Of a stretch of 64,000 nt of DNA, positions 856-31,823 are shown one piece after another; within the stretch, counting starts at the first letter, position 1, and each line of letters starts with the position of its first letter. The notes below the pieces were generated by a model, which saw only the letters and a program-made list of their open reading frames with translations, was not told where the DNA came from and made no database searches. Both the position numbers and the translations under genes were made by a program. This stretch comes from Ignavibacteria bacterium (lineage in GTDB: Bacteria; Bacteroidota; Ignavibacteria; UBA10030; SZUA-254): NCBI GenBank assembly GCA_016178595.1, contig JACOSY010000005.1, positions 1 through 64,000 of the forward strand, read 5' to 3'.

Positions 856-939
856 AATAACGGATAACAAATAACCGGTAACGACTAACGATCCTCCAAC
901 ATCAGATTTCTAACCCCTAAACTCAAACCTCTAACCTCT
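856..939. repeat. Degenerate period-7 repeat abutting the next start codon
   Basis: In-phase heptads AATAACG GATAACA AATAACC GGTAACG ACTAACG ATCCTCC AACATCA GATTTCT AACCCCT AAACTCA AACCTCT AACCTCT. Confidence 0.8.
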
Positions 940-942
940 CCT

Positions 943-1995
943 GTGCCCTCTCGTCGTATCGTCATTCTTGCCGAAGGAACATTCAGTCCGCTTGAATCGA
1001 AGACCGCCAATCAGGTCATCCGGTATATTCCGGAACAAGTCGTGGCTGTCATTGATAGCAAACAGGAGGGACGAACGGCGCAGCAGGTGCTGGGATTTGG
1101 CGGCGATATTCCCGTCGTTCCGAATCTTCACTCTGCACTCGCTCATGCGCCTGATACATTACTTATTGGCATTGCCCCAACGGGCGGACGGTTGCCGGAT
1201 GAATGGCGACACATTATCACTGAAGCGATCAATAACAAACTCGACATCATCAGCGGGCTTCACACATATCTTTCCGATGACAAGGAATTTTCGTATCATG
1301 CATCCATCAAGAACGTTCGGTTGATCAACCTTCGAGGAATTCCCCCGGAGTATGAAGTTGTCGCGAAAGGATGTTGGAAGGAACGGGAGGCAAGAACCAT
1401 CCTCACCGTCGGCACAGATTGTAATGTCGGAAAAATGACGGCATCGCTGGAATTGCACCGCGAGTTTCTCCGCCGGGGAATGAAATCGGATTTTGTCGCA
1501 ACGGGGCAGACGGGCATCCTTCTTTCCGGACACAGAGGGGTTGCCGTCGATTCAGTTGTTAGTGACTATGTTGCAGGCGCGATCGAGTACGAAGTGGAAC
1601 GTTCCGTCGCTCGCGGTGCGAAATATATTCATGTCGAAGGACAAGGCTCGCTGACACATCAAGGATATTCGAGTGTCACACTTGGCCTGCTGCACGGCGT
1701 CATGCCGGATGCGATGATCATGGTGCATCATCCGGCACGTCACGCTGACGATTATGGATTCTCGCTCGATAATGTCAAACGACTGATTGATCTCCATGAG
1801 ACGATGCTTCGGCCGTTCAAGGAATCTAAAGTCATCGGCATTGCCATCAACACCGTCATGATGACCGCGCAGCAGGTTGAAGTTGCAAAGCGTGAGCTGC
1901 AGGAACAGACTGCTCTTCCGGTTGCGGATGTGCTCACGCCCGGTGTTCGCATCCTTGCCGATGCGCTTCTCGAATATTTTCAAAGTAAGCCATAG
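943..1995 (+). CDS. DUF1611 domain protein (DgcN-like), GTG start
   Basis: P-loop segment LTVGTDCNVGKMTASLELHREFLRRGMKSDFVATGQTGILLSG is typical of DUF1611. Confidence 0.85.
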   Translation: MPSRRIVILAEGTFSPLESKTANQVIRYIPEQVVAVIDSKQEGRTAQQVLGFGGDIPVVPNLHSALAHAPDTLLIGIAPTGGRLPDEWRHIITEAINNKLDIISGLHTYLSDDKEFSYHASIKNVRLINLRGIPPEYEVVAKGCWKEREARTILTVGTDCNVGKMTASLELHREFLRRGMKSDFVATGQTGILLSGHRGVAVDSVVSDYVAGAIEYEVERSVARGAKYIHVEGQGSLTHQGYSSVTLGLLHGVMPDAMIMVHHPARHADDYGFSLDNVKRLIDLHETMLRPFKESKVIGIAINTVMMTAQQVEVAKRELQEQTALPVADVLTPGVRILADALLEYFQSKP

Positions 1996-2001
1996 AATAG
2001 T

Positions 2002-3369
2002 ATGATCGTGATGAAGTTCGGCGGTACTTCCGTAGAAGATGCCGCCGCAATACGAAGAGTCATCGATATCGTCCGGCGGGAAATTCCCCATACGCCGCTT
2101 GTGACGGTCTCGGCGTGTGCCGGAGCGACGAACGATCTCATCAATGCGGCACACGCCGTTCGTGACGGCCGATTGGAAACAGCGATGAACGTTCTCACTA
2201 CGCTGCGTGAACGCCATGTGACCATCGCGCACGAGCTTCTGAGTGCAGACGAGTACAATCGAGTTGCGGCTGCATTGGATGGAATGTTCACGGAGCTGCA
2301 GAACTATATTCAGGGTGTTTTCCTTCTCGGCGAGTTGACAAACCGCTCGCTCGATACCTTCTCCAGCTACGGCGAGCGTTTGTCGTCCATCATCATTCAC
2401 GCTGCGATGCAGGAAATGGGGATGCCATCAGAGCTTGTGGATGCACGGAAGGTCATGATCACCGACGCACATTTCGGTTCGGCGCAGCCTCTTTGGGAAG
2501 TCGTAGCAGAACGGGCTAAACAGTTTTTCCTTCCAATTCTCGAAGCGAAAAAAATAGTGGTGACGCAGGGATTCATCGGCGCAACGGAGGATGGAATTAC
2601 CACAACGATCGGCCGCGGCGGCTCGGATTTGAGCGCGGCGATTTTCGGATCGGCCTTGCGTGCCGAGGAGATCCAAATCTGGACTGATGTCGATGGAATG
2701 ATGACCGCCGATCCGCACATCATACCGGAATCGAAATTGATCGACATCATGAGCTTTAATGAAGCATCCGAGCTTGCCTATTTCGGCGCGAAAGTGCTTC
2801 ATCCCCGAACAATTCTTCCGGCAATTGAAAAGAATATTCCTGTGCGAGTGCTCAATTCCCACAGGCCTGAGGTTGGCGGCACACTGATCGTCAAATCACC
2901 GGAATCCTCGTCCGGTGCAAATGGCGACGTCATCAAGTCCATCGCCTTCAAGAAAGGCATTACGGTCATTAACGTCAGCTCATCAAGGATGTTGATGGCC
3001 CACGGATTTCTCGCAAGGCTATTTTCCATTTTTGCGGATCATGAGAAGAGTATCGACGTTGTTGCGACCTCCGAGGTGAGCGTCTCGCTAACCGTTGATA
3101 ATGAAACCGGCTTGGCAGAAATTGTGAAGGAACTTGAGACGATCGGCGAGATACGGCTTCATCGCGGCAAGGCAATCATCTGTATTGTCGGCGAAGGAAT
3201 GAAACATACGCCCGGGATTGCCGGAAGAATTTTTGGCGCGCTCGCGCGGGCGAACGTGAACATCGAGATGGTATCGGAAGGCGCGTCCGAAATCAATCTG
3301 ACACTCGTCGTCGATGAGAACGATGTGAACACGTCGGTGCGGGTATTGCACGATGAGTTTTTTGGCTAA
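2002..3369 (+). CDS. lysC: Aspartate kinase with C-terminal ACT domains
   Basis: MIVMKFGGTSVEDAAAIRRV; GRGGSDLSAAIFGSALRAEEIQIWTDVDGMMTADPHI. Confidence 0.95.
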   Translation: MIVMKFGGTSVEDAAAIRRVIDIVRREIPHTPLVTVSACAGATNDLINAAHAVRDGRLETAMNVLTTLRERHVTIAHELLSADEYNRVAAALDGMFTELQNYIQGVFLLGELTNRSLDTFSSYGERLSSIIIHAAMQEMGMPSELVDARKVMITDAHFGSAQPLWEVVAERAKQFFLPILEAKKIVVTQGFIGATEDGITTTIGRGGSDLSAAIFGSALRAEEIQIWTDVDGMMTADPHIIPESKLIDIMSFNEASELAYFGAKVLHPRTILPAIEKNIPVRVLNSHRPEVGGTLIVKSPESSSGANGDVIKSIAFKKGITVINVSSSRMLMAHGFLARLFSIFADHEKSIDVVATSEVSVSLTVDNETGLAEIVKELETIGEIRLHRGKAIICIVGEGMKHTPGIAGRIFGALARANVNIEMVSEGASEINLTLVVDENDVNTSVRVLHDEFFG

Positions 3370-3389
3370 GTCTTCAGTGAAAGCGACGG

Positions 3390-4655
3390 ATGGAACAATT
3401 CCACTACAAAAATAACGAGCTTTGGTGTGAAGAGGTTAACGTCGACGAGATCGTGCGAAATGTCGGCACGCCGGTGTACGTTTACAGCAGGCGCTCAATT
3501 GTCGATCACTGCAGATGGATCGAGCAGGCATTCGGAACGATCGATCATCTTTCCTGTTACGCCGTGAAGGCAAACGCAAACCGCGAAGTTCTTCGGACAC
3601 TTGCGCACGAGGGAATTGGCGCCGATGCCGGCTCAGTCGGTGAGTTGTACCTTGCACTTGCCGCAGGCTTTCCTCCCGAGAAGATTACCTTCAGCGGCGT
3701 GGGTAAACGGAACGACGAGATCGAGTTCGCACTGCGACGAAACATTCTTTCCTTCAATGCCGAATCGGAGGAGGAGATACAAGTGCTGAGTGACATCGCC
3801 GGCACGTTAGCGACGACTGCGCGTGTGTTTCTTCGCGTGAACTTCGATATCAAGACGACAACTCATCCCTACATTACTACCGGACGCAGGCACAACAAGT
3901 TTGGCGTCGATTCATCCAAAGCTCTTTCCGTTCTTCGGTCGGCAAGCAGACTGCCGGGGCTTGAGGTGGTCGGCATTCACAGTCACATCGGTTCACAGAT
4001 CATTGACGAGGAAACTTTCATTGCTGCGGCAGAGGCACTCTCTCGCGTAGCCAGCAACCTCCGCAGTGAGGGGATCAACATTACACAAATCAATTTCGGA
4101 GGCGGCTTCGGAGTGCAATATCGAAACTACATCACGCACCGGCTTCTTCCCTTGGAACCTGAAAATCCCGAAGCGGAAGTGACTACAGTCCGGCTGCTGC
4201 AAGCGATCCTCCCGATACTCAAGAAAACGGGCTGCAGGATATTTATTCAGCCCGGGCGCTCGATTGTTGCCCACGCTGGAATCTTACTCACAAAAGTGTT
4301 ATATAGGAAACAAGGAGATGGTAAGATATTTGTCATTGCCGATGCAGGGATGAACGATCTTATTCGTCCGAGTCTGTACCAATCGTACCATCAGATCGTT
4401 CCAACAAGATTGGTCGAGAATGAACATGAAATTGTCGATGTCGTTGGGCCACTCTGCGAGACAGGCGATTTCTTTGCCCTGGATCGGCGACTTCCGCACG
4501 TTGACCGGGGAGACTCGTTAGCTGTTCTGTGTGCTGGTGCATACGGCTATGTTCTCTCGTCGAACTATAACGGCAGGCCTCGTCCGGCTGAAGTCATGGT
4601 GGACGGAGATACGTTTGCCATTGTTACACCGCGTGAAGTTCTTGAGGATTTATAA
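3390..4655 (+). CDS. lysA: Diaminopimelate decarboxylase
   Basis: Fold-III PLP decarboxylase: VGTPVYVYSRRSI, CYAVKANANREVLRTLAHEGIGADAGSVGEL, GGGFGVQY, GPLCETGD. Confidence 0.95.
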   Translation: MEQFHYKNNELWCEEVNVDEIVRNVGTPVYVYSRRSIVDHCRWIEQAFGTIDHLSCYAVKANANREVLRTLAHEGIGADAGSVGELYLALAAGFPPEKITFSGVGKRNDEIEFALRRNILSFNAESEEEIQVLSDIAGTLATTARVFLRVNFDIKTTTHPYITTGRRHNKFGVDSSKALSVLRSASRLPGLEVVGIHSHIGSQIIDEETFIAAAEALSRVASNLRSEGINITQINFGGGFGVQYRNYITHRLLPLEPENPEAEVTTVRLLQAILPILKKTGCRIFIQPGRSIVAHAGILLTKVLYRKQGDGKIFVIADAGMNDLIRPSLYQSYHQIVPTRLVENEHEIVDVVGPLCETGDFFALDRRLPHVDRGDSLAVLCAGAYGYVLSSNYNGRPRPAEVMVDGDTFAIVTPREVLEDL

Positions 4656-4671
4656 TTGAAGCAATGACTCA

Positions 4672-5688
4672 ATGAGACAATTCAACGTCGCTGTTGTCGG
4701 AGCTACGGGACTTGTTGGACGGAAGATGATCCAGGTATTGGAGGAACGGAATTTTCCTGTTGGCAATCTCCGTTTGTTAGCTTCGAAGAAGTCGGTTGGA
4801 AAGAAGATCACGTTTCGCGACATGGACTATGCGGTTGAAGAGTTGACTCCGAACAGCTTCATGGGAATCGACATTGCGCTCTTCTCTGCGGGCGCTGCCG
4901 TGAGCAAAGAGTTTGCGCCTGTCGCAGCTCGCGCCGGTGCGCTCGCCATCGATAACAGCAGCGCGTGGCGAATGGACAAAGACGTACCGCTCGTTGTTCC
5001 GGAAGTGAACCCGGACGCCATCGTTCTACACAAGGGCATCATAGCGAATCCAAACTGCTCGGCGATTCAGATGGTTGTTGCACTCAAGCCGCTGCATGAT
5101 CGGTGGAAGATCAAACGTGTTGTCGTATCGACGTATCAGTCGGTGACCGGCGCAGGAAACCTTGCCGTACGCCAGCTCGAATCCGAACTCGCGAAGGATG
5201 CGAATCCAACAAAGAAATTTCCTCATCCCATCGCATTCAATGTCTTGCCGCAGGTCGATGTTTTTGTCGACGGCGGCTATACAAAAGAGGAAATGAAGAT
5301 GGTCAACGAGACGAAGAAAATTATGGGAGATGACTCTATTAACGTGACGGCGACGTGTGTTCGGGTACCGGTTATTGGCGGCCATAGTGAAGCGGTAAAC
5401 TTAGAGTTCGAGAATCCGTATACACTTGAAGAAGTCTACGATGTGCTGCGGCGTGCTCCGGGCATTTGCCTTCAAGACGATGTCAACCAAAGTATTTATC
5501 CAATGCCGATCTGGTCGCACGAATGTGATGAGGTGTTTGTCGGTCGCATACGCCGCGATGAGACGATTAAGAATGGACTGAATTTGTGGATCGTCTCGGA
5601 TAATCTGCGCAAGGGCGCCGCAACAAACGCGGTACAGATTGCAGAAGAGTGGATTAACGACAATTCAAAAGTAAAAAGTAAAAAGTAA
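4672..5688 (+). CDS. asd: Aspartate-semialdehyde dehydrogenase
   Basis: VAVVGATGLVGRKMIQVLEERNFPV; NPNCSAIQMVVALKPL. Confidence 0.95.
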   Translation: MRQFNVAVVGATGLVGRKMIQVLEERNFPVGNLRLLASKKSVGKKITFRDMDYAVEELTPNSFMGIDIALFSAGAAVSKEFAPVAARAGALAIDNSSAWRMDKDVPLVVPEVNPDAIVLHKGIIANPNCSAIQMVVALKPLHDRWKIKRVVVSTYQSVTGAGNLAVRQLESELAKDANPTKKFPHPIAFNVLPQVDVFVDGGYTKEEMKMVNETKKIMGDDSINVTATCVRVPVIGGHSEAVNLEFENPYTLEEVYDVLRRAPGICLQDDVNQSIYPMPIWSHECDEVFVGRIRRDETIKNGLNLWIVSDNLRKGAATNAVQIAEEWINDNSKVKSKK

Positions 5689-5793
5689 AAAAGTAGTTGA
5701 GTATGTGAGATAATAAGGGGTTGAGATAGTTATCGGTTATTCGACCGCAGTCATATTTCCAAAAGAATCCAAAATCCAAAAAATCTAAAATTC
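5665..5793. repeat. Degenerate period-7 repeat tract covering the asd stop codon and intergenic region
   Basis: tcaaaag taaaaag taaaaag taaaaaa gtagttg ... agttatc ggttatt, then AATCCAA AATCCAA AAAATCT AAAATTC at 5766-5793. Confidence 0.7.
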
Positions 5794-5807
5794 TCCAGGA
5801 GAGTACC

Positions 5808-6386
5808 ATGAAATACCTTCTTGCGTTCTTGCTCGTTTTTTCCTTCATCGGCCATGCAGGGGATCTGAAAGATCTCAAAGTCGGTGAAGCCGTTCCTTCC
5901 TTCACGCTCAAAAACTATGACGGCAAAGACTACGACCTGAAAAAAGTTCTGAAGGAGAACAAGTACGCCGTTGTGATGTTCATTTCAACCGAATGCCCGG
6001 TCTCCAATGGATACAATGAACGGATGGTGAAGTTGAACGAGACATTCGGCAAGAAAGGGGTCGCATTCCTCGGTATCAATGCGAACAAGGAGGAAGATGT
6101 GAAAAGGATTGCCGCGCATTCGAAGGAACACGGATTCAAATTTCCTGTCTTGAAGGACGTACAGAACAAAGTCGCCGATCTCTACGCTGCGCAGGTGACA
6201 CCGGAAACGTTCGTCATTAATACGGAAGGAAAGCTCGTCTATCACGGTCGCATCGACGACAGTCGAACTCTATCCAAAGTCACGACGAACGATCTCGCCG
6301 ACGCGTTGGACAAACTTCTTGCCGGCAAGACTTTGACCGCTGCAACATCGAAGGCATTCGGCTGCTCGATCAAGCGTGTGGACTGA
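5808..6386 (+). CDS. Secreted redoxin / AhpC-TSA family thioredoxin-like protein
   Basis: Signal peptide; FISTECPVSNGYNERMVKLNETFGKKGVAFLGINANKEED. Confidence 0.85.
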   Translation: MKYLLAFLLVFSFIGHAGDLKDLKVGEAVPSFTLKNYDGKDYDLKKVLKENKYAVVMFISTECPVSNGYNERMVKLNETFGKKGVAFLGINANKEEDVKRIAAHSKEHGFKFPVLKDVQNKVADLYAAQVTPETFVINTEGKLVYHGRIDDSRTLSKVTTNDLADALDKLLAGKTLTAATSKAFGCSIKRVD

Positions 6387-6902
6387 GTGCCGATGCTGCG
6401 CTGGTTTCTTTTCGGTTCTCTTATCGTTCTCGGTACGACATTCGGTGAAGCACAGACAAAACTGCGCGGACTTCCTCCGGTCACGCCAATCCATATCGCC
6501 GAGTTAAAGGAAATGATCCGGCACGACTCCGGCAACGTCGTGTTTGTGAATGTATGGGCAACGTGGTGCAAGCCGTGTAGGGAAGAGATGCCGCAGGTCG
6601 TTCGGTTGCGGAAGAATTTTTTGAATAAAGGATTTTCGCTGATCCTCGTTTCAGTGGATGATAGCGATATTGTCGGTACACAAGTTCGACCCGCGCTGCA
6701 AAAGCTTGGCGTCAATTTTCCTTCCTATATCATCAACGAGAAATCCGACGAAGCATTCATTACGGGGATGGATTCGAGCTGGAACGGCGCGCTGCCAACG
6801 ACGTTTGTGTACGACCGGCATGGAGCTCTCTCCAATATTTTAACCGGCGAACGGACCTACAAACAGTTTGAGGAAGCCATAAGAAAATTTCTCCGCGAGT
6901 AG
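6387..6902 (+). CDS. TlpA-like thiol-disulfide oxidoreductase
   Basis: VFVNVWATWCKPCREEMPQ (WCxxC); GTG 6387 or ATG 6393 start. Confidence 0.88.
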   Translation: MPMLRWFLFGSLIVLGTTFGEAQTKLRGLPPVTPIHIAELKEMIRHDSGNVVFVNVWATWCKPCREEMPQVVRLRKNFLNKGFSLILVSVDDSDIVGTQVRPALQKLGVNFPSYIINEKSDEAFITGMDSSWNGALPTTFVYDRHGALSNILTGERTYKQFEEAIRKFLRE

Positions 6903-6936
6903 ATGTTTGGAATTCACTCACTCATTTGGTATTTTA

Positions 6937-6969
6937 ATCCCGTTATCCCGTAACGGGATTTTTATTTTC
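6937..6969 (+). terminator. Rho-independent terminator
   Basis: ATCCCGTTA-TCCCG-TAACGGGAT perfect 9-bp stem followed by TTTTATTTT. Confidence 0.85.
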
Positions 6970-6978
6970 GATGATCGT

Positions 6979-8808: not shown

Positions 8809-8812
8809 TCAA

Positions 8813-8854
8813 GGCAAAAATGCAAAGGGAAAAAGTAAAAAAGCCGGCGGAAAA
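8813..8854. repeat. Degenerate period-7 repeat directly after a stop codon
   Basis: GGCAAAA ATGCAAA GGGAAAA AGTAAAA AAGCCGG CGGAAAA in one phase. Confidence 0.6.
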
Positions 8855-8900
8855 ATACACGATGTCTACCCTAATACCTTGCGGATGCCCGGTCACCACC

Positions 8901-8925
8901 CACGAATTCATATCTTAAATTCGTG
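8901..8925. repeat. Short palindrome
   Basis: CACGAATT-catatctta-AATTCGTG, 8-bp perfect arms. Confidence 0.6.
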
Positions 8926-9191
8926 CCGGTTGTCAAATCAACAAAGCAAAATTGCCTCTGAGAGGGAAGAAGGAAAATTTTCCTCCTTGGGTCAAGGATA
9001 GAGCTTTAAGAGATAAGAATAAGAAACACTATATTTCAACCTCCCGCAAATGGTGACAAAAAGAATGAAGATTTGAATTCGGATTAACTGAGAAGATACA
9101 AAAGTGAGTATCAAATGATAAAAGCCTATTTGTCGGAAATTCTTCATGCTCAATTTGGCAAGTGATTATTATACGTAACGCTCAAGAAGCT

Positions 9192-9281
9192 ATGAGGAAT
9201 CTTCTGAGCATTTGCCATCGTTTGTACGTCAGAAGATTCGTCACGGCGACCGACAGCACCGAGCGTTCATTTGGAGATTAG
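9192..9281 (+). pseudogene. Truncated remnant of a class II aldolase N-terminus
   Basis: atg...tag reads MRNLLSICHRLYVRRFVTATDSTERSFGD*; intact gene at 9769 reads ...SNLLDICHRLYARGFVTATDGNVSVR. Confidence 0.85.
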
Positions 9282-9287
9282 CGTCAA

Positions 9288-9763: not shown

Positions 9764-9768
9764 CAAAA

Positions 9769-10518
9769 ATGGGCCTGCCTCAACAGCAGTTAGCAAGTAA
9801 CCTCCTTGATATCTGCCACCGCCTCTACGCGCGTGGCTTCGTCACAGCGACCGACGGAAACGTGAGCGTTCGTCTCCGGAATGGAAATTTCCTTACGACA
9901 CGAACGTCCGTCAACAAAGGCATGATCGCGCCGGATGATCTGGTCGAGGTAAATCCAGAAGGAATACCGATTACCTCACACCTCCAACCTTCGACAGAAA
10001 TCGGAATGCATTTGTTCATTTATTCCCAGCGGCCCGATGTTAACGCAATCGTTCACGCACATCCGACATATGCAACAGGATTTGCGACCGCCCGTCAGTC
10101 ACTCACTGACTGTATCTTTCCCGAAGTCATTGTGGGACTTGGCGCGATTCCTCTCGCGGAGTATGCAACACCATCGACGAACGAAGTTGCCGAATCGCTG
10201 CTGCCATACGTGAAGAGTGCCGATGCAATACTCCTTACGAATCACGGCGTCGTGACGTATGGAAAGGGTTTGTTCGATGCATATTTCAAGATGGAAAAAG
10301 TCGAACACGCCGCGCACATCACGTTCGTTGCAAGAATGCTGGGCGGCGCAAAACCCCTTTCATCATCGGAAGTCGAGAAGCTTCGAGCGATTAGTCAGCG
10401 GGCATACGCAAAAGATTTTTCCGACAAGATTGCTTGTGAGCCGGAAAGCGGCAATTCGAACGAGGTACCCACAGACGAAGAGATTCGCGAAATTGTCCGG
10501 CAGATGATACAAGCATAG
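9769..10518 (+). CDS. Class II aldolase/adducin family protein (fuculose-phosphate aldolase-like)
   Basis: FVTATDGNVSVRLRNG; STEIGMHLFIYSQRPDVNAIVHAHPTYATGFA; LLTNHGVVTYGK. Confidence 0.93.
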   Translation: MGLPQQQLASNLLDICHRLYARGFVTATDGNVSVRLRNGNFLTTRTSVNKGMIAPDDLVEVNPEGIPITSHLQPSTEIGMHLFIYSQRPDVNAIVHAHPTYATGFATARQSLTDCIFPEVIVGLGAIPLAEYATPSTNEVAESLLPYVKSADAILLTNHGVVTYGKGLFDAYFKMEKVEHAAHITFVARMLGGAKPLSSSEVEKLRAISQRAYAKDFSDKIACEPESGNSNEVPTDEEIREIVRQMIQA

Positions 10519-10526
10519 AGCATAGA

Positions 10527-10591
10527 GCAGAAAGCAGAAAGCAGAAAGCAGAAAGCAGAAAGCAGAAAGCAGAAAGCAGAAAGCAGAAAGC
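10527..10591. repeat. Perfect heptanucleotide microsatellite (GCAGAAA)x9
   Basis: Nine uninterrupted copies at 10527-10589, then GC; ATG of ddl at 10600. Confidence 0.98.
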
Positions 10592-10599
10592 TTAGGATA

Positions 10600-11763
10600 A
10601 TGAGCAGTTCCATTCCAAAATCTAAAATTCAAAATCCGAAAATCCGGGTCGGCGTGATCTTTGGTGGGCGATCCGCAGAGCATCAAGTTTCTCTTGTCTC
10701 CGCAACATCAATCATGAACGCGCTTGATAGGGAAAAGTACGATGTGGTCCAGATCGGCATCACACCCGAAGGGAAATGGCTTAGCGCGTCCGATGCGATT
10801 GCGCTGTTGAAGAATGACGCTACGTTCGACAAGTCAAAAGAAACGATTCTGCTTCCGGACCCGACGGTGAAAGGATTGGTACGGCTGAATCCGGAATTTC
10901 CTTCATCTCATATCGAATCGCTCGACGTCATCTTTCCCGTGCTGCACGGGATGTACGGCGAGGATGGAACGGTACAAGGTTTATTCGAGCTGGCTGGAAT
11001 TCCCTACGTCGGTGCCGGCGTGTTGGGCTCTGCCGCCGGAATGGATAAAGTCGTCGCAAAACAGCTCTGTGAAAATGCCGGCATACTCGTGACGCCGTAC
11101 GTATGGTTTCCGGCGTCCGCGTATGACAGAACCGGGAAGAAAATCGTTGATGACATCGAGAGGAAGCTGAAGTATCCGTGTTTCGTCAAACCCTCCAACT
11201 CTGGATCGAGTGTTGGAATCTCAAAGGCACACAACAGGAAGGAGCTTCTTGTTGCCATTGATCTTGCCATGGAATACGACCGGAAAATTCTTGTTGAAAA
11301 AGGGATCAAGAACGCGCGCGAGATCGAAATCAGCGTGCTCGGAAACGACGAACCGGTTGCATCCGTGCCGGGCGAAATTTTTTCCTCCAACGAATTCTAT
11401 GACTACGACGCGAAGTACGTCGACGGCAAGTCGACAGCAGTCATTCCCGCCAAGCTCCCGAAATCGGTTGTAAAGAAGATCCAAGAGCTTGCCATTCGTA
11501 CCTTTAAGGCCGTGGACTGCTCGGGCATGGGACGTGTTGATTTTCTCGTCACGAAGCAGGGTAATAAGATTTACTTGAATGAAATCAATACGATTCCGGG
11601 TTTTACATCTATCAGCATGTACCCGAAGTTGTGGGAAGCATCGGGCCTATCGTACTCGAAGCTCCTCGATCGCCTCATTGAGCTTGCGATCGATCGTTAC
11701 CGCCAACGACAATCATTGAAGACGACCTTCAAGCCCAAAAAGGAGTGGTTTAGAGAAGAGTGA
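10600..11763 (+). CDS. ddl: D-alanine--D-alanine ligase
   Basis: KIRVGVIFGGRSAEHQVSLVSATSI; VLHGMYGEDGTVQG; EINTIPGFTSISMYP. Confidence 0.95.
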   Translation: MSSSIPKSKIQNPKIRVGVIFGGRSAEHQVSLVSATSIMNALDREKYDVVQIGITPEGKWLSASDAIALLKNDATFDKSKETILLPDPTVKGLVRLNPEFPSSHIESLDVIFPVLHGMYGEDGTVQGLFELAGIPYVGAGVLGSAAGMDKVVAKQLCENAGILVTPYVWFPASAYDRTGKKIVDDIERKLKYPCFVKPSNSGSSVGISKAHNRKELLVAIDLAMEYDRKILVEKGIKNAREIEISVLGNDEPVASVPGEIFSSNEFYDYDAKYVDGKSTAVIPAKLPKSVVKKIQELAIRTFKAVDCSGMGRVDFLVTKQGNKIYLNEINTIPGFTSISMYPKLWEASGLSYSKLLDRLIELAIDRYRQRQSLKTTFKPKKEWFREE

Positions 11764-22850: not shown

Positions 22851-22899
22851 CGAGAATGAGACAAAAAAATGCGCGCATCTTATGTCACATATCGTGCTC

Positions 22900-25812
22900 T
22901 TAGTGCGCTTCCAACCAATTCTTCCCGATACCGACTTCGACCTCGATCGGTACGGAAAGTGGCAATGCGTTTTTCATTTCTTCCATCACCAACTTCCCGG
23001 CTCTATGCTCCATGCTCTTTGCTATTTCAAAAACCAATTCGTCGTGCACTTGCAAAATCATTTTGGCGTCGATCCCTTCATCCCTTAATCTGCTGTAAAT
23101 ATTTATCATCGCCAGCTTGATCATGTCGGCGGCTGTGCCCTGGATCGGCATGTTAATCGCCTGTCGCTCCGCATTACTGCGTACGTTGAAGTTGCGGCTG
23201 TTGATATCGGGGAAGTAACGGCGGCGTCCAAGCAGCGTTGCCGTGTAACCGTCGTGTCTTGTTTTTGCAAGAGTGTCGCCGATCCATTGTTTCACTTTTG
23301 GGAAACGGTTGAAATAGCGTGTGATGAGATCCTTCGCCTCAGTCTGTGAAATGCTGAGCCTTGAAGAAAGTCCGAACGGACCGATGCCGTACATGATTCC
23401 GTAATTGACTTGCTTCATGTTCCGGCGCATCTCTTTCGAGACATCGTTGACGGGCACATTGTACACTCTCGCTGCGGTCGTCGTGTGGATGTCTTCGCCA
23501 TCCATGAATGCCTGACTCAGCGTTTCGTCGCCGGAGATGTGTGCCATGATGCGCATCTCGATCTGCGAGTAATCAGCCGAGAGGATGCGATGCCCGGGCT
23601 TGCCGGGGATAAAGGCTTTGCGGATGCCGCGACCGATTTCCGTTCGGATGGGAATGTTCTGTAAGTTGGGATTGCTGCTCGAGAGTCGTCCAGTCGCTGC
23701 GATAGCCTGGTTAAACGACGTGTGGATGCGGCCGGTCTGCGGATTGATCAGTGCCGGCATTGCATCAATGTATGTCGACTTCAACTTTTGAAGCTGCCGG
23801 TATTCCAGCAACAGTTCGATGACGGCGTGCTTGCCCCGCAATTCTTCCAGCACGGATGCGTCGGTCGAATATCCGGTTTTTGTTTTCCGCGTGGCGGAGA
23901 GTTGTAACTTTTCGAAAAGAATCTTGCTTAATTGCTGCGTCGAGTTGATGTTGAATTCCTCACCGCAGAGCTGGTAGATGTCCCGCGTGAGGTTTTCCAA
24001 CACCCGTTCCATTTCTTTGGAAAGATCCGCAAGGTAATCGACGTCGAGCGAGACGCCCGCGTATTCCACATCGGCGAGAACGCTGATGAGCGGGAACTCG
24101 ATCGTCTCGCAAAGTTCAAGCTGTCCGAGATCGGTGAGCTTTTGCTTCAAAATAGTGTACAGCCGCCACGTAATATCTGCGTCCTCGGCAGAGTAGTCCG
24201 CTATTTTTCCAACATCAATCTCTCGGAGAGCTTTTTGGTCCTTTCCTTTTCCAACAAGATCCTCATACGAGATCATTTTGTACTGCAAGTGCTCCGCGGC
24301 AAGTGCATCTAAATTATGCTGTCCATCGGGACGAAGGATGTAGTTTGCGACCATCGTATCGAACGCCGCACCTTGAAGGCGCACGCCGTGTGCGAGGAGA
24401 ACAAGCATATCGTACTTGATGTTCTGCCCAACCTTCTTGATGGCAGGGTTGGTGAGGATGGGAGAAAGTTCTCGAAGGACATCGTCGATTGGAAGACCGA
24501 TATGGTGAAGCTGCTCGATTGGCTCGGCGATGGAATTCTTCGTGTCGTCGAATGATGACAAATTATCGGTGAAAAGGTCGGCTGACTGTTTTTTCCTTCC
24601 TTGAGAATTTTGTGATAACGCCGCCTTCTGCACAGTTCGTTTCGTGTTCTGTCCGCTCGTCTCAACGATTGAGATATACCATGCTTCACCGGATGTTATC
24701 GCGAACGAGAGGCCGATGAGTTCTGCCCGTAGAGGATCGACGCTCGATGTCTCGGTGTCGAAAGCAAAGATCCCCGCCTTCTTGAGGACTTTCAAGAATG
24801 CATTGAATTGCTTTTCGGTTGCGACCAGATGGTACGTATGCTTATCTGTTGCAATGTCGGAATATTCAAGCTTGGCCGTATCAAACTCGGTTGATTCCTT
24901 CGCTGCAGCTTCCGTCGGTGTGAACTTCTTGATGAGCGATCGAAACTCCAGGTCGGTGAATAACCGGAGGAGCTTGGCGTCGTCGCACGGCTTTGCCGAG
25001 AGCCGGTGGAAATCGATCGCCACAGGAACATTCGTATCGATTGTAACGAGTTTTTTCGAAAGCAAGGCATCATCATGATACTGTTCGAGCTTCTGCGCGG
25101 AGCTCTTTTGAGCAACCTTGTGGATGTTTTGGAGGATGTTCTCGACGCTCCCGAACTCCTGGACGAGCGGTATCGCTGTCTTCTCACCGATTCCATAGAC
25201 ACCGGGAATATTGTCGGATTTATCGCCGATGAGCGCAAGAACATCGATAACCTGTTCAGGCGGTACGCCAAATTTTTCCCTGACGGCAGTTTCATCCAGA
25301 ATTTCCCAGTCATCGCCTCGCTTGCCGGGTCTGTACATCTTGATGAATGGAGAGATCAGTTGCATGAAATCTTTGTCGCCCGTGACGAGATATGTTTCGA
25401 TTCCTTCTTTCTCGGCCCTGCGCGCGAGCGTGCCCATGATGTCGTCGGCTTCGAAGCCCGGGACTTCAACGCTGGGAACGTTGAATGCACGGACGACTTC
25501 TTTGAGCTTTTCGAGCTGGCCGGACAACTCCTCCGGCATCTTCTGGCGAGTGGCCTTGTACGGTTGGTACATGAGGTGCCGGAAGGTCGGCTGTTTCGTG
25601 TCGAACACGACGGCGATGTGATCCGGCTTCTCGTCGTTCAAAATTTTCATCAATGTATTGACGAAGCCGAAAATGGCGCTCGTGTTTTCTCCCTTCGAGT
25701 TAATGAGTGGACGGCTGATGAATGAGAAGTATGCACGATAGGCGAGCGCCATGCCGTCAAGCAGGAACAATCGCTCCTTCTTCGATGTAGTGCGATTCGA
25801 GTTCTTGGACAT
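22900..25812 (-). CDS. polA: DNA polymerase I
   Basis: 5' nuclease LFLLDGMALAYRAYF; FAFDTETSSVDPL; polymerase motifs DYSQIEMRIMAHISGD and LQVHDELVFE. Confidence 0.97.
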   Translation of the reverse strand: MSKNSNRTTSKKERLFLLDGMALAYRAYFSFISRPLINSKGENTSAIFGFVNTLMKILNDEKPDHIAVVFDTKQPTFRHLMYQPYKATRQKMPEELSGQLEKLKEVVRAFNVPSVEVPGFEADDIMGTLARRAEKEGIETYLVTGDKDFMQLISPFIKMYRPGKRGDDWEILDETAVREKFGVPPEQVIDVLALIGDKSDNIPGVYGIGEKTAIPLVQEFGSVENILQNIHKVAQKSSAQKLEQYHDDALLSKKLVTIDTNVPVAIDFHRLSAKPCDDAKLLRLFTDLEFRSLIKKFTPTEAAAKESTEFDTAKLEYSDIATDKHTYHLVATEKQFNAFLKVLKKAGIFAFDTETSSVDPLRAELIGLSFAITSGEAWYISIVETSGQNTKRTVQKAALSQNSQGRKKQSADLFTDNLSSFDDTKNSIAEPIEQLHHIGLPIDDVLRELSPILTNPAIKKVGQNIKYDMLVLLAHGVRLQGAAFDTMVANYILRPDGQHNLDALAAEHLQYKMISYEDLVGKGKDQKALREIDVGKIADYSAEDADITWRLYTILKQKLTDLGQLELCETIEFPLISVLADVEYAGVSLDVDYLADLSKEMERVLENLTRDIYQLCGEEFNINSTQQLSKILFEKLQLSATRKTKTGYSTDASVLEELRGKHAVIELLLEYRQLQKLKSTYIDAMPALINPQTGRIHTSFNQAIAATGRLSSSNPNLQNIPIRTEIGRGIRKAFIPGKPGHRILSADYSQIEMRIMAHISGDETLSQAFMDGEDIHTTTAARVYNVPVNDVSKEMRRNMKQVNYGIMYGIGPFGLSSRLSISQTEAKDLITRYFNRFPKVKQWIGDTLAKTRHDGYTATLLGRRRYFPDINSRNFNVRSNAERQAINMPIQGTAADMIKLAMINIYSRLRDEGIDAKMILQVHDELVFEIAKSMEHRAGKLVMEEMKNALPLSVPIEVEVGIGKNWLEAH

Positions 25813-25993
25813 GCAATCGGTACGACAGAATGAAATTTGCGGCAGGCTTTACGAAGCCCCGTGTACAAGATAGTAATTTTCCGTTTCCCGGCAAATCAGC
25901 GATGGCGATGGAATAGCATAGAAACGCATGAATCATGAGAATTTGTACAAAATTACATAGGCAAGCAAGTCACAGTCGAAACATAAAAAAGTC

Positions 25994-26022
25994 TTGACTT
26001 TCAACCTCATTTCCTGTAAGTT
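25994..26022 (+). promoter_or_regulatory. Candidate promoter TTGACT-17-TAAGTT
   Basis: TTGACT at 25994-25999, 17-bp spacer, TAAGTT at 26017-26022, upstream of the 26111 ORF. Confidence 0.45.
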
Positions 26023-26110
26023 AGGTTATCAATCCCATCATGCGTCGTATGAAATTCGTGTTGATGTCCGCACGTGATACCATGTTCTCCAAACCTTATT
26101 AGGAATCTCT

Positions 26111-27193
26111 ATGAAGCCCATTCGCGAATCAGTTTTTCTCATGGTTCTCATGGCAGCGTTCCTTCTTGCTCCCCCATCGACGATCGGGCAACCGACGACG
26201 ACGACAAACGCTGCAACGAACATCTCCTCGACTTCAGCGAAGCTGAACGGTTCGGTCTTATCGCCAGCTCTGCCGGCCACCGCACATTTTGACTGGGGAA
26301 CAACGATGTTGTACGGCAATGTTACGCCGGACGTGATCGTGAGTGAGGCTTCTACGCCGCAGCCCATAATGTTCACACTTACCGGTCTCGTTCCAAATTC
26401 AACGTATCATTTCCGTGCATCGGCATCGAACGATAACGGGTCAAGCAATGGTTCCGATATGAGCTTCGTGACAACCGCGGCGGCGCCCACGGTCGCGACG
26501 TCGTCGGCACAGAACGTCACCTCGTCATCGGCACGATTGGTCGGGACTGCTAATCCGAGAAACAGTGCGACGAATGCACACTTCGAATGGGGAACGAGCA
26601 TCGCGTATGGCAATACAACTCCAAATTCCTCCCTCACTGCTGACACAACAACGCAGACAGTCATGTTTGATCTTGGAAGTCTGTCGCCAAATATGACATA
26701 TCATTACCGAATCACAGCAACGAATCCGGGTGGGACTTCGAACGGCGGCGATCAGACATTCACGACTGCTCCGCTTGCGCCGTTACCGACTGTAACGGTT
26801 CTACAACTCCAGGATCTTACGCCGAACTCTGCTAGGTTTGTCGGAGCGGTCAACCCGAATGGAGCCTCGACCACTGCGCATTTCGAGTGGGGGCCGACGT
26901 CGCTGTATGGAAATACGACTCCGGACGTGTCGATGGGCAATGGAACATCCGATGTTCAAATCAGTTTTGCACTCGGCGGTCTCTCTCCGCACTCCACCTA
27001 TCACTACCGCCTTGTCGCGACGAACATTGGTGGAACGGCAAACAGCGGCGATCAAGTCTTCGCTACGACGTCGATTGGTCCATCACTAGTGCCGCTTCTT
27101 ACTCCGTGGGGTGGAATACTCTTGGCTTCGCTTTTTCTGATTGGATTTATCTCATCAATACTTGTGCAGCGTCGGGTGAAATCGCGCAGGTAA
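26111..27193 (+). CDS. Secreted protein with three FN3-like repeats and an IPTL-CTERM-like C-terminal tail
   Basis: Repeats ...AHFDWGTTMLYGNVTPD..STYHFRA / AHFEWGTSIAYGNTTPN..MTYHYRI / AHFEWGPTSLYGNTTPD..STYHYRL; tail VPLLTPWGGILLASLFLIGFISSILVQRRVKSRR. Confidence 0.8.
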   Translation: MKPIRESVFLMVLMAAFLLAPPSTIGQPTTTTNAATNISSTSAKLNGSVLSPALPATAHFDWGTTMLYGNVTPDVIVSEASTPQPIMFTLTGLVPNSTYHFRASASNDNGSSNGSDMSFVTTAAAPTVATSSAQNVTSSSARLVGTANPRNSATNAHFEWGTSIAYGNTTPNSSLTADTTTQTVMFDLGSLSPNMTYHYRITATNPGGTSNGGDQTFTTAPLAPLPTVTVLQLQDLTPNSARFVGAVNPNGASTTAHFEWGPTSLYGNTTPDVSMGNGTSDVQISFALGGLSPHSTYHYRLVATNIGGTANSGDQVFATTSIGPSLVPLLTPWGGILLASLFLIGFISSILVQRRVKSRR

Positions 27194-27314
27194 ATTCGAG
27201 ATAATTTTTCGTTGACAGACAAGCTCTCCTTACTGCATTTCCTGCAACTATACGATTTGCTTTTCGCCTGAAAAACCACGAACTTCTTTCCGTCAATACA
27301 CGTAAAGTAAGTTC

Positions 27315-28304
27315 ATGGTTCCGTCAGCACTTCTCAATTCCATTAAAGATCAGGCGAAGAAACTCAAGAAGACAGTCGTTCTTCCCGACGCACTCGATGA
27401 GCGCGCGCTGAAAGCGGCTCGCATCATCCTTGATGAAGGCATTGCATCTCCCATTCTCATCGGCGACGAGAATCAGATTCGACAGAAAGCCGAATCACAA
27501 TCAGTTGCGATTAGTCTCCACAACATCCGCATCGTCGATCCCGTAAAGTCTGGAAAGTTGAGCGACTTCTCCCACGTCTTCTTTAATCTTCGCAAGTCGA
27601 AAGGGTTGGATTTCACGCAGGCCGGAACCCTCATGAAGAATCCGCTTTATTTCGGCGCGATGATGGTTCGGGAAGGATTGGCGGATGGAAGTGTCGCAGG
27701 TTCGCTCTCGACGACGGGAGATGTCTTGCGTGCGGCAATCCAGGTGATCGGGCTTCGCGAGGGCATCAGCGTCGTTTCGAGCTTTTTTCTGATCGTATTT
27801 CCCCATGCAGTGTACTCGTTCGCCGATTGCGCCGTTGTCCCCGACCCGACTGTGGAGCAGCTTGCGGACATTGCGATTGCGACCGCGGAGAACCACCGAA
27901 AGCTCACCGGCGAGGAGCCGCGCGTCGCGATGCTGTCGTTCTCGACGAAGGGAAGCGCGAGTCATCCATTCATCGAGAAAGTACAACAAGCAACGGTCAT
28001 CGTGAAGCAAAAAGCTTCCGGCCTCCTCATTGATGGCGAGCTGCAGCTCGATGCGGCCCTCGTTCCGAAAGTCGCACGATCCAAAGCCCCCGGCAGTCCG
28101 GTCGAAGGAAACGCAAATGTTCTCATCTTTCCTGATCTCAATGCGGGCAACATCGCTTACAAGCTGGCGGAACGTCTCGGCGGGGCAGAGGCCATCGGCC
28201 CGATTGTGCAAGGACTGAAGAAACCCGCTTTCGATCTTTCGCGCGGCTGCAGCGTGGAGGATATTGTCAACACGGTTGCCATCAACTGTGTGCTCGCGGC
28301 GTAG
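27315..28304 (+). CDS. pta: Phosphate acetyltransferase
   Basis: [90 protein letters not shown]. Confidence 0.93.
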
Positions 28305-28315
28305 AAGGCACAGCT

Positions 28316-29476
28316 ATGGCGGAGCCTCTCGCCGTGCCGAAGCGGCGTCATCTCTTTATCGACCTCTACCGGAGCGCAGTCATCCTCCTCATGCTCGAAG
28401 GTCACGTCTTCCGCACGTTTCTTCCGCCGGACGTTCAGCAAACGCCGTTCTTTCAGTTCCATGAATTCTTTCACGGATTGAGTGCACCGGCATTCTTGTT
28501 CGGCGCCGGACTAACATTCGTCATCTCGACACGGAAGCGGTGGGAGTCGTATCATCATTGGGACGAGCCGTTGGCGCGTCGCGTGCGACGATTGCTGCTT
28601 GTCCTCTGCCTCGGACTCGGTCTGCATCTCCCGTACTTCTCTTTCCGGAAGATTCTTCTTGAAGGTACACACGATGAAATCCTCCAGTTTTTCCGATTCG
28701 ATGTTCTTCACTGCATCGGTGTGGGCTTGCTCCTTTTGCATGCACTGGTCTTTTTCTTCAAAACGGAAGTCCGGTTTTACGGTCTTGTTCTTGCAACCAC
28801 AGTTACCGTTTGCTTCGCGACACCGCTCATGTGGGATGTCGATGTTGTCCGAATGCTTCCAGTCCCGATTGCCCAGGCGTTGAGCGGCAGCCATGGCTCG
28901 CTGTTTCCGCTTTTCCCGTACGTCGGTTTCCTCTTTGCGGGCGTCATCGTTTCGTGGGAATACCTCATCGCCTCAGAACAGCGGCGAGAAAGATTGTTCA
29001 TGCAGAAGCTGCTAACGATCGGTGCCTCACTGATTATTGTTGGAATTCTTTCAGATGTTGTCCCGATCCGGATATATCCGCACTATAACTTCTGGTTCAC
29101 AAGTCCGAGTTACTTTCTCATTCGCGTCGGTGCGCTGATGATGGTCGTTGCCGCTTTCTGGTATGCGGCAGCACGCACCGTGGCCCCCAAAAAAGTTCTC
29201 ACCGTGCTTGGGATCGAATCGCTCTTCGTCTACGTCCTCCATCTTCTTATCCTGTACGGGTCTGCGATGAATCCGGCTTTCAATCTTCAAGTCATATTGG
29301 GAAACAATCTGACGGTTCTTCAGACGATGGGCGTGTTCATCGGCGTTCTTCTCACGATACTCGCAGTCGCGCTGGCATGGAATTTCCTGAAGAGAATCCA
29401 TCCCAATTTCTACCGCATCGTCCTGCTTGCGGGCACTGCGATATTCCTCTATCAATTCTTTACAAGAGATTTTTAG
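28316..29476 (+). CDS. DUF1624/HGSNAT-like multi-TM membrane protein
   Basis: RHLFIDLYRSAVILLMLEGHVFRTFL...HGLSAPAFLFGAGLTFVI; multiple TM segments. Confidence 0.7.
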   Translation: MAEPLAVPKRRHLFIDLYRSAVILLMLEGHVFRTFLPPDVQQTPFFQFHEFFHGLSAPAFLFGAGLTFVISTRKRWESYHHWDEPLARRVRRLLLVLCLGLGLHLPYFSFRKILLEGTHDEILQFFRFDVLHCIGVGLLLLHALVFFFKTEVRFYGLVLATTVTVCFATPLMWDVDVVRMLPVPIAQALSGSHGSLFPLFPYVGFLFAGVIVSWEYLIASEQRRERLFMQKLLTIGASLIIVGILSDVVPIRIYPHYNFWFTSPSYFLIRVGALMMVVAAFWYAAARTVAPKKVLTVLGIESLFVYVLHLLILYGSAMNPAFNLQVILGNNLTVLQTMGVFIGVLLTILAVALAWNFLKRIHPNFYRIVLLAGTAIFLYQFFTRDF

Positions 29477-29478
29477 TG

Positions 29479-30666
29479 CTACGGAAGAGCAATGACTCCG
29501 AGGATGGTTTGCATGCGTGCGCCGGTTGCACCCGGCACATTGCCCGCATGACCTGCGACGGCTTCGTTGGCAAAGAGTGCGAAGCAGAGTGCTTCTTTCG
29601 CGTCGGAAGAAATGCCGAGTTCGTCGGTTGTCCGAATGCTGATACCGGTAAAGTATCTCCGCAGTGCTTCCATAACGTACGCATTGTGCACGCCGCCGCC
29701 GCTGACAAAAAGTTCGGCGAGCGGCGTCTTTCGCCGAATAAATCGCAGATAGCTTTGGAAAATACTGAGCGCCATGAACTCCGCAGATGTTGCGACGAGA
29801 TCGGCGGGCTCCATGCCCCGGCCTCTCTTCAATACTTCATCGACAAACACTTGCCCGAAGGCCTCACGCCCCGTCGACTTCGGTGGCTTGAGCCTTAGGT
29901 AGGGATGTTTGATCATCCATTGAAGCAGCTCCGGAATGATATGTCCGCGTGAAGCGATCATGCCACCGTTATCAAAGGGTTTGTTGATGAATCGATGCGT
30001 GAGCGCGTCGATGATCATGTTGCCGGGACCGGTATCGAATGCGACCACATCGCCGATCGAACAGTTTCGCGGGAGAACGGTTATGTTCGCGATGCCGCCG
30101 ATGTTCAGCACGGCGCGGTTCATTGTTCGTGATCGTAGCATGAGATAATCGAAGAGAGGAACGAGCGGCGCTCCCGATCCGCCGACTGCAATATCACCGA
30201 CGCGAAAATCGCCGACCGTGACAACTCCGGTGAATTTGGCAAGTGCAGATGGATTCCCGATCTGCAATGTTGAGCGTATGCTTTTGCCGAAGAGTCTCTG
30301 TCGTTGGGGGAGATGGTGGATCGTTTGTCCGTGTGAGCCGATGAGGTCGACATCGTCCATGCGAAGTCCCGCTGTACGGGCGATACGCTTTGCTGCGTCA
30401 GCGAAGAAAGTTGCGACGAGCATATCGAGTCGAGTTACCTCGTCGAGACGCGCAGTGTCGGCGTCGGAATTCTTCAAGAGGAATTGTTTGAATCCCCGCG
30501 GATAGGGATACGTTTGAAATGCACGCTGTCGTATGTTCGATCTGGTTCCTGAGCCAGTGATCGCGACAAGCACCGCGTCGATTCCATCGACCGACGTACC
30601 GGACATGAGGCCAATAACTTGTTTCCGCTTCTTGCGAAATAATTTTTCGAGTGTATTCATTTTCAT
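29479..30666 (-). CDS. anmK: Anhydro-N-acetylmuramic acid kinase
   Basis: VIGLMSGTSVDGIDAVLVAI; GSHGQTIHHLP; LNIGGIANIT; FDTGPGNMIID. Confidence 0.95.
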   Translation of the reverse strand: MKMNTLEKLFRKKRKQVIGLMSGTSVDGIDAVLVAITGSGTRSNIRQRAFQTYPYPRGFKQFLLKNSDADTARLDEVTRLDMLVATFFADAAKRIARTAGLRMDDVDLIGSHGQTIHHLPQRQRLFGKSIRSTLQIGNPSALAKFTGVVTVGDFRVGDIAVGGSGAPLVPLFDYLMLRSRTMNRAVLNIGGIANITVLPRNCSIGDVVAFDTGPGNMIIDALTHRFINKPFDNGGMIASRGHIIPELLQWMIKHPYLRLKPPKSTGREAFGQVFVDEVLKRGRGMEPADLVATSAEFMALSIFQSYLRFIRRKTPLAELFVSGGGVHNAYVMEALRRYFTGISIRTTDELGISSDAKEALCFALFANEAVAGHAGNVPGATGARMQTILGVIALP

Positions 30667-30693
30667 TCATCACGTCGAGAGTGTTCCATGAAG

Positions 30694-30735
30694 AAATCCT
30701 AAATACCAAGTCCGAAGCTCCAAACAAATTCTAAT
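30694..30735. repeat. Degenerate period-7 repeat
   Basis: AAATCCT AAATACC AAGTCCG AAGCTCC AAACAAA TTCTAAT. Confidence 0.75.
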
Positions 30736-30754
30736 CTCTCAGGGGTTAGTTCCC

Positions 30755-30819
30755 CGCCGCTTGCGGCGAGAAAATTAAAATAAAACATAATCAACTTGAT
30801 ACACCGCTGCTTGCGGCGG
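30755..30819. repeat. Pair of CGCyGC-TT-GCGGCG mini-palindromes
   Basis: CGCCGC-TT-GCGGCG at 30755-30768 and CCGCTGC-TT-GCGGCGG at 30804-30819. Confidence 0.85.
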
Positions 30820-30875
30820 GCGTAGTTCATTTTCTAAATTCTGCACCGAAAATCGGTTACTCAATTTCTGTACCA

Positions 30876-31763
30876 ATGAACGAATCGCAAATGGCAGATT
30901 CTACTAAGCCTCTGATCGGCGCTCACCAATCCATCGCCGGTGGAATTCACAAAGCATTCGAGCGAGCGAAACAGGTTGGCTGCACCGCGCTGCAAGTGTT
31001 CACGAAAAATTCCAACCAATGGAACGCCAAACCGCTCACCGACGAAGATATCGCAAGCTACAAAATGGCTGCTTCGAAGTCAACTATTATCGCGCCTGTT
31101 GTCGCACACGATTCGTATCTCATCAACTTGTGCGCGAAAGATACGGCACTGCTGCAACGATCGCGTCGTGCATTTGTCGACGAGCTGAAACGATGCGAGG
31201 CGCTTGGCATTCCGTACCTCAACTTTCATCCGGGTGCGCACACGGGGCAAGGCGAAGAGGAGGGAATCACGCGCATTATCGAGTCACTCAATTGGGCGCA
31301 CGAAGAGACGAAGGGATTCAAGGTGAAGAGTGTGTTGGAAACAACGGCGGGACAAGGTTCGGCGATCGGCTACCGCTTCGAACATCTTCAACAAATCATC
31401 GATGGAGTTGATGAGCCGGAGAGGATGGCGGTGTGCATCGACACATGTCATATCTTCGCCGCGGGCTATGACATCAGCACGGAAAAAGGATATGATGAAA
31501 CGATGAAGGAATTCGATGCGATTATCGGATTGGAGCGGCTCGCCGCCATTCACACCAACGATTCCAAGAAGCCGCTCGGCTCGCGCGTTGACCGGCACGA
31601 GCACATTGGGAAAGGTGCAATCGGGGAGCTTGGTTTCCGCATGTTGATGCAGGATGAGCGGCTCGCGAATATCCCAAAAATACTTGAGACGCCGAAGGGG
31701 GAGGACCTCAAAGAGGATAAGATGAATTTGAGCGTGTTGAGGAAGTTGGCGGAAGGGGAGTAG
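30876..31763 (+). CDS. nfo: Deoxyribonuclease IV (AP endonuclease 2 family)
   Basis: IGAHQSIAGGIHKAFERAKQVGCTALQVFTKNSNQW; LNFHPGAH; CIDTCHIFAAGYDI; HTNDSKKPLGSRVDRHEHIG; start may be ATG 30891. Confidence 0.95.
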   Translation: MNESQMADSTKPLIGAHQSIAGGIHKAFERAKQVGCTALQVFTKNSNQWNAKPLTDEDIASYKMAASKSTIIAPVVAHDSYLINLCAKDTALLQRSRRAFVDELKRCEALGIPYLNFHPGAHTGQGEEEGITRIIESLNWAHEETKGFKVKSVLETTAGQGSAIGYRFEHLQQIIDGVDEPERMAVCIDTCHIFAAGYDISTEKGYDETMKEFDAIIGLERLAAIHTNDSKKPLGSRVDRHEHIGKGAIGELGFRMLMQDERLANIPKILETPKGEDLKEDKMNLSVLRKLAEGE

Positions 31764-31823
31764 TAGAGTGCTGGAGTAAGGGAGTGGTGGAACGATGTTC
31801 GATGTCCGTTGTTCGACGTGGGT
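31758..31823. repeat. Degenerate period-8 then period-7 repeat after the nfo stop
   Basis: GGAGTAGT AGAGTGCT GGAGTAAG GGAGTGGT GGAACG, then ATGTTCG ATGTCCG TTGTTCG ACGTGGG. Confidence 0.7.

Follow-up and report, generated by a model that had tools for sequence, protein, structure and literature searches.

What kind of process fixes the length of a repeated unit while letting its sequence change? The question is raised by a 64,000-nucleotide (nt) stretch of an Ignavibacteria bacterium genome (GenBank assembly GCA_016178595.1, contig JACOSY010000005.1, positions 1 to 64,000; hereafter the window), in which short tracts near gene ends and starts keep a 7-bp register with variable units. We propose that these heptad tracts are probably the footprint of recurrent 7-nt tandem duplication, each unit being copied from its neighbor, combined with point mutation. 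The source genome is a 3.1-Mb draft in 61 contigs, of which 833 kb was examined in stretches. The comparison DNA consisted of 20-kb stretches of 13 relatives, 80 named loci around orthologues of ddl, the gene for the D-Ala-D-Ala ligase Ddl, and 100 kb of E. coli K-12. Judged by Ddl, the closest named relatives are Ignavibacteria/Bacteroidota metagenome-assembled genomes (MAGs), with a top identity of 74%. Labels beginning with G denote genomes (G000 is that of the window, the others are relatives) and those beginning with L denote loci or stretches. Genes were called by a purpose-written simple codon-score caller, which may miss small genes or shift starts.

The 7-bp period was examined by detecting local lag-k self-match runs in intergenic DNA (+1/-1 scoring, threshold 10). 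At lag 7, 37 intergenic blocks were observed in the 833 kb, as opposed to 1.7 in dinucleotide shuffles, while lags 5, 6 and 8 to 13 yielded 1, 6, 8, 5, 3, 1, 3 and 2 blocks, respectively. Harmonics were found at lag 14 (19 blocks) and lag 21 (15 blocks). Coding DNA contained 17 lag-7 blocks against 5.7 expected; its remaining lags not divisible by 3 were at or below expectation, except for lag 14 (12 versus 7.7). The density of tracts was 0.0175 per kb in coding and 0.19 per kb in intergenic DNA. By this count, the 7-bp register described in the initial annotation is real in intergenic DNA. The test that the annotation had named in advance as refuting, a comparison of lag-7 autocorrelation in intergenic DNA with shuffles, went the other way: the mean over all intergenic DNA (433 kb) was not raised (0.2562 versus 0.2543 shuffled, z 0.9). 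The mean fails to register blocks that are nonetheless real because the lag-7 signal is local rather than genome-average.

The relationship among units within a tract points to how they arose. Among 36 degenerate tracts, each 42 nt or longer, unit identity fell steadily with distance, from 0.697 for adjacent units to 0.605, 0.527, 0.463, 0.413 and 0.378 at distances of two to six units. As a shared-motif control, units were drawn independently from the column frequencies of each tract and the same detection was then applied; identity in this model was 0.68 to 0.66 at every distance. The difference between lag 7 and lag 28 was 0.234 in the real tracts (bootstrap 0.186-0.282) and 0.022 in the model. 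Since the decay is absent from the model, it indicates that units were copied from their neighbors and then changed, in keeping with the length-constrained copying that was suggested at the outset. A fixed binding motif or repeated binding site is ruled out by the same decay of similarity against the selection-matched control.

Heptads of the same kinds occur in frame inside housekeeping genes, identified by Pfam as those of AlaRS, Mfd and UvrA. The AlaRS loop of G000 carries (AAAGTCA)4, read as TKSKVKSQKSKSG; the same loop is built of GAGCRGN units in G003 (GAGCGGTGAGCAGGGAGCGGTGAGCAGT) and of CAAATCN units in G014 (CAAATCTCAAATCCCAAATCG), and the loop DNA inspected from six other genera contained no heptads. 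Near residue 312 of Mfd, AATCCGA-type heptads were found in G000, G001, G003 and G004 and in a short form in G005, but none in G002, G007, G013 and G015. Two further Mfd loops hold heptads of differing families, with up to 11 units in G003. One UvrA loop has heptads, again of differing families, in G000, G001, G003 and G017, but ten other genera lack them there. A single orthologous site can therefore hold different families in different genomes. A tract in the middle of AlaRS cannot be explained by any regulatory function at gene junctions. The helically phased binding protein envisaged by the initial annotation is not borne out either: the motif is not the same from locus to locus and changes along a tract, 7 bp does not correspond to a helical repeat, and the repeats stand midway in AlaRS, Mfd and UvrA. 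As a separate observation, AlaRS of L168 (reverse complement) has at residues 386-457 a second, longer insertion of ~60 amino acids at another site, in which no heptad was seen; it has only its position in common with an insertion of ~86 amino acids in G005.

The trait is patchy within one family. With a single threshold (score 11) applied to whole sequences, lag-7 density per 100 kb was 4.8 in the window's genome, 18.5 in G003 and 8.8 in G017, and 0 in G002, G007, G013, G015, G016 and E. coli. Values of 8.1 in G001, 36 in G004 and 27.5 in G014 are biased upward, as some of these stretches were chosen around known tract-bearing genes. The densest sequence seen was L074 (Kuenenbacteria, candidate phyla radiation), with 13 lag-7 blocks (score at least 11, runs of N excluded) in 16.9 kb, or 77 per 100 kb. 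G003 and G011, which belong to the same genus, were too diverged and fragmented for junction alignment.

We envision that tandem duplication would proceed in 7-nt steps with the adjacent unit as its template, and that subsequent point mutations would make the unit drift along the tract. The duplication event itself may be slippage during replication, and the 7-nt step is most likely set by a size preference of the replicative polymerase. The process appears to act genome-wide on coding and non-coding DNA alike. As 7 is not divisible by 3, selection against frame breaks would remove most of the events that fall in genes; tracts would survive in gaps, at either end of a gene, and in tolerant loops whose inserted length adds up to whole codons. 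The process would be active in some genera of this family and order and silent in others. A more ambitious version, which we hold only tentatively and consider rather doubtful, is that some bacterial lineages copy DNA by an inherent 7-nt step and so deposit drifting units, at times also their inverted copies, in non-coding DNA and essential genes alike; the process would be switched on or off from one genus to the next, would require a specific polymerase or repair gene, and would supply new linkers, gene ends and intercistronic hairpins.

Several observations weigh against duplication and mutation as the whole account. Tracts hug gene edges more than uniform placement within gaps predicts: in gaps between co-directional genes, 48 of 79 lie within 9 nt of an edge (expectation, 25.6 +- 3.6). 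A significant inverted partner (p<=0.01) was found in 8 of 52 tract-bearing gaps versus ~0.5 expected, and simple slippage makes none; direct partners at this level numbered two. Heptad families recur within the genome more often than shuffled units do (15.7% versus 8.5% of pairs), and the same family is found at the Ddl and Mfd sites of several genera, neither of which follows from pure random birth. Simple loss of MutS, a candidate cause of the duplications, was dismissed since MutS was found in the genome. With respect to the same protein family, G000 as a whole has a single match (MutS1); a second, MutS2-like match is absent here and in G004 and present in most relatives. The inverted pairs, which form hairpins between stop and start codons, may reflect selection or a further process. 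The edge hugging, the recurrence of families and the inverted partners could be added by copying from a hairpin template or by selection favoring a hairpin between cistrons.

These features bear on the alternative that the tracts are regulatory elements. Their inverted arms would form a stop-start hairpin that tunes termination, mRNA stability or re-initiation, or the arms would be bound by S1-, Csp- or CsrA-like proteins. The arms do abut stop and start codons, and on the mRNA strand the stop-side tracts are purine-rich (purine fraction 0.61) and the start-side tracts pyrimidine-rich (0.39). The excess of inverted partners fits as well. At L106:15251-15323, for example, GAGCGAAGAGCAGAGAGCATAGAG follows the stop codon and its inverted partner CTCTTGGCTCTCCGCTCACTGCTCTCCGCT precedes the start codon, the units of the two arms being AGAGCNN and GCTCTNN. 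A near-complete hairpin is found in L067, a matching strand arrangement has been published for Xanthomonas and Nostoc (PMC4692102), and translational regulation has been proposed for TAACTGA repeats in Beggiatoaceae (PMC4679880). Despite this, most tracts lack an inverted partner, their sequences vary between and within tracts, the same repeats lie mid-coding in AlaRS, Mfd and UvrA, and related genera do without tracts altogether. Nor did the Xanthomonas authors find their heptads to act in regulation (PMC4692102). On balance, we regard a regulatory origin as unlikely. The arms in L067 (12600-12694, KSB1), GTAAAACGTAAGGCGTAAAGC and GCTTTACGCCTTACGTTTTAC, pair perfectly over 21 bp as a hairpin whose 5' arm contains the stop codon.

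Further details of gene edges were considered. On the stop side, the final 7 coding nt, stop codon included, share the register of the tract (0.44 versus 0.27 without a tract), and positions -14 to -8 give only 0.27. Start codons show no carry-over of the register (0.245), which eliminates the gene start as a template for the tract. That the heptads are always paired as hairpins was rejected, as only 8 of 52 gaps qualified at p<=0.01. Provision of stop codons in all three frames (7 mod 3 = 1) was likewise rejected as a function: in 80 tracts there were 220 sense stops versus 198 in shuffles and 168 antisense, a mild effect that was retained solely as a filter, and sense-strand stops are absent from many tracts. 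The initial annotation had placed all blocks at gene ends or starts. There is an edge bias, but the tracts at 5665-5688 and 10612-10646 are coding and others lie deep inside genes. We conclude that confinement to gene junctions reflects what is tolerated and is not a property of the element.

A second alternative, which we judge quite improbable, is a dispersed, mobile or templated family akin to short tandemly repeated repetitive (STRR) sequences, repetitive extragenic palindromes (REP) or Rickettsia palindromic elements (RPE), copied from site to site and also in frame into genes. Recurrence of families within the genome above chance would suit such a family. The consensus units include AAAAGTC, TAACNNN, AGCAGAA and AATCCGA. 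TAACNNN, which has a TAAC core and three variable positions (for example TAACGGATAACAAATAAC at 858), occurs in three consecutive units at many loci: 32 overlapping matches genome-wide versus ~0.4 expected, a value calculated for 12 fixed bases. Three units of TCAAAAN are found at seven places, AlaRS among them. Motifs thus do recur between loci, as had been noted early on, though the reversed TAACNNN control gave 6 matches and 8 of the 32 matches code for parts of type IX secretion system (T9SS) sorting tails (Por_Secre_tail domains); the latter also disposes of the idea that the TAAC family is purely intergenic. Horizontal transfer was suggested by MacGregor for TAACTGA (PMC4679880). Against a mobile family, the tracts lack shared flanks, defined ends and a fixed element length, and their units drift inside the tract. 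In addition, peptides of one orthologous loop derive from different families, and similar A-rich families are found in distant phyla (for example L085, Kerfeldbacteria), so that convergence suffices. Lastly, it is very improbable that composition, codon structure or metagenome assembly gave rise to the tracts as an artefact: the tract-bearing genomes examined are MAGs as far as named, and a perfect array such as 10527-10591 could have been collapsed in length, but dinucleotide shuffles, other lags and E. coli lack the signal, assembly cannot produce degenerate tracts, and tracts are present in MAGs from many independent projects and published for isolates (PMC4692102, PMC4679880).

The boxes of integron attC sites (GTTRRRY...RYYYAAC) were considered for the GTTA/TAAC arms only; the other heptad families share no such boxes. 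Integron attC sites have these boxes in a single imperfect palindrome and are associated with an integrase. T9SS C-terminal sorting tails (Por_Secre_tail, YPNPFNPxTxIxYxLP) are coded by GTTANNN-type heptads at L160, L165, L166 and L167, which are G000 contigs C24, C49, C56 and C59, and further tails (L103, L209, L215 and L207) contain CGAATNN or similar heptads. The heptads in these tails have possibly been captured by the sorting signal.

Heptameric repeats as such have precedents in Xanthomonas, Nostoc and Beggiatoaceae. What is new here is that the units drift, belong to many families and also occur in frame in essential genes. No paper was found that describes these three features together, in a search that reached few subscription journals. 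Rehm et al. (2015) described intergenic GGGAATC and GGGGA(C/T)T heptads in Xanthomonas and Nostoc and reported no regulatory role for them (PMC4692102). The tracts here share with those a 7-nt unit, an intergenic bias and the gene-end layout, that is, the coding strand 0-50 nt after the stop codon, sometimes overlapping it, and the opposite strand upstream of a start codon. In both cases position is kept while sequence and length vary, and the neighboring genes belong to no functional class. Xanthomonas and Nostoc, however, have one G-rich, quadruplex-forming family per genome, whereas many families, mostly A/T-rich and without G-quadruplex or GGGAATC/GGGGA(C/T)T units, were found here; their units change along a tract and are also found in frame within essential genes. 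MacGregor (2015) reported TAACTGA direct repeats in marine Beggiatoaceae, Cyanobacteria and a few Bacteroidetes, with other heptamers in the same gaps (PMC4679880). As in that system, a TAAC-core heptamer stands near starts and stops, other heptamers share the Bacteroidetes gaps, and long arrays are absent from close relatives. TAACTGA is one exact heptamer with hardly any variants, while the units here are not exact TAACTGA repeats but variable TAACNNN, one of several families.

As in the STRR heptamers of heterocystous cyanobacteria and a 2007 survey (cited in PMC4692102 and PMC4060949), period 7 is favored over 6 and 8 in non-coding DNA. Polymerase size has been offered as the explanation for perfect heptameric repeats, a suggestion that PMC4692102 attributes to Mrazek and colleagues. 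The STRR and 2007 surveys reportedly count perfect repeats and would miss most degenerate tracts with drifting units. The tracts here resemble heptameric simple sequence repeats in that a 7-nt tandem unit is over-represented in non-coding DNA; they differ in that most are degenerate and few are perfect or nearly so (for example 10527-10591 and AlaRS). The proposed equivalence to STRR sequences in a Bacteroidota-like genome is therefore a fair comparison, as the relatives are Ignavibacteria/Bacteroidota MAGs, but it does not extend to a single STRR-type family, since there are many unit sequences. RPE are long and palindromic and occur both between genes and in frame in proteins. The heptads share this dual placement with RPE. 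Borg tandem repeats are reported to be both intergenic and in frame as well, but lie on extrachromosomal elements and have no fixed 7-nt step (PMC9879509).

The preference of bacteria for heptamers, a question standing since 2007, becomes testable here: genera range from 0 to ~18 or more tracts per 100 kb, orthologous loops have independently acquired different heptads, genera with and without tracts can be compared in gene content, and the mutation can be sought directly. L074 (Kuenenbacteria) would lend itself well to a comparison of strains. Interpretations of intergenic heptads as regulatory need to be set against a mutational null model. Annotators should be aware that translated repeats account for some loops and for some extensions at the N- and C-termini of proteins, such as KSKIQNPK and KSEIPNPKSQ.

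Table 1. Heptad tracts in the window, with lag-7 matches and p values from dinucleotide shuffles of each block.
Positions	Strand	Tract	Context	Support
856..891	+	NNTAACN family	upstream of DgcN-like gene (943-1995)	lag-7 block score 12
910..939	+	CTAACCC CTAAACT CAAACCT CTAACCT	ends 3 nt before start codon at 943	lag-7 block score 13
5665..5691	+	AAAAGTA		19/20, p 0.002; strong
5766..5793	+	AATCCAA/AATCTAA	upstream of thioredoxin-like gene (start 5808)	14/21, p 0.02; any lag p 0.14; weak
10511..10591	+	AGCATAG x2, then AGCAGAA x9		71/74, p 0.0005; strong; Tandem Repeats Finder (TRF) 11.6 copies, 95%
10612..10646	+	AAATCNN		18/28, p 0.003; moderate; lag 8 fits equally well
30694..30735	.	degenerate heptads	between divergent anmK and nfo	18/35, p 0.0035; moderate; any lag p 0.04
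31793..31816	+	CGATGTT CGATGTC CGTTGTT CG	downstream of nfo (30876-31763)	13/17, p 0.0015; strong

Among the eight blocks originally listed for the window, five or six withstood dinucleotide shuffling (Table 1). The block at 8813..8854 (+) is not supported as a heptad tract (14/35 lag-7 matches, p 0.40), nor is 5692-5752, which makes up most of the second block (14/54, p 0.65). The first block, 856-939, is strong as a whole (47/77, p 0.0005), and 31758-31823 as a whole is weak (p 0.05). Positions 5665-5688 lie at the end of the gene for aspartate-semialdehyde dehydrogenase, Asd (4672-5688), and encode its C-terminal tail, NSKVKSKK, together with the stop codon; the ASD profile stops at residue 329 of 338. 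The array at 10511-10591 begins at, and takes in, the stop codon of a class II aldolase gene (9769-10518). Read in frame, 10612-10646 is the N-terminal extension SIPKSKIQNPK of Ddl (10600-11763), and similar translated AAATCNN heptads are found at the same Ddl position in the orthologues L011, L018, L025, L043 and L046.

Two other types of repeat were seen. Short G+C-rich REP-type palindromes (CCGCCGCTTGCGGCG; CCTGCTCGGCGGGCAGG) are found at 30750-30830 of the window, at 9860-9900 of L043 and near 3030 of L026; in L043 and L026 the palindrome is in frame in Ddl and read as APARRAG/PPVRRAG. A 117-bp tandem repeat of 2.5 copies (97%, TRF) occupies positions 1-293 of the window, at the contig end.

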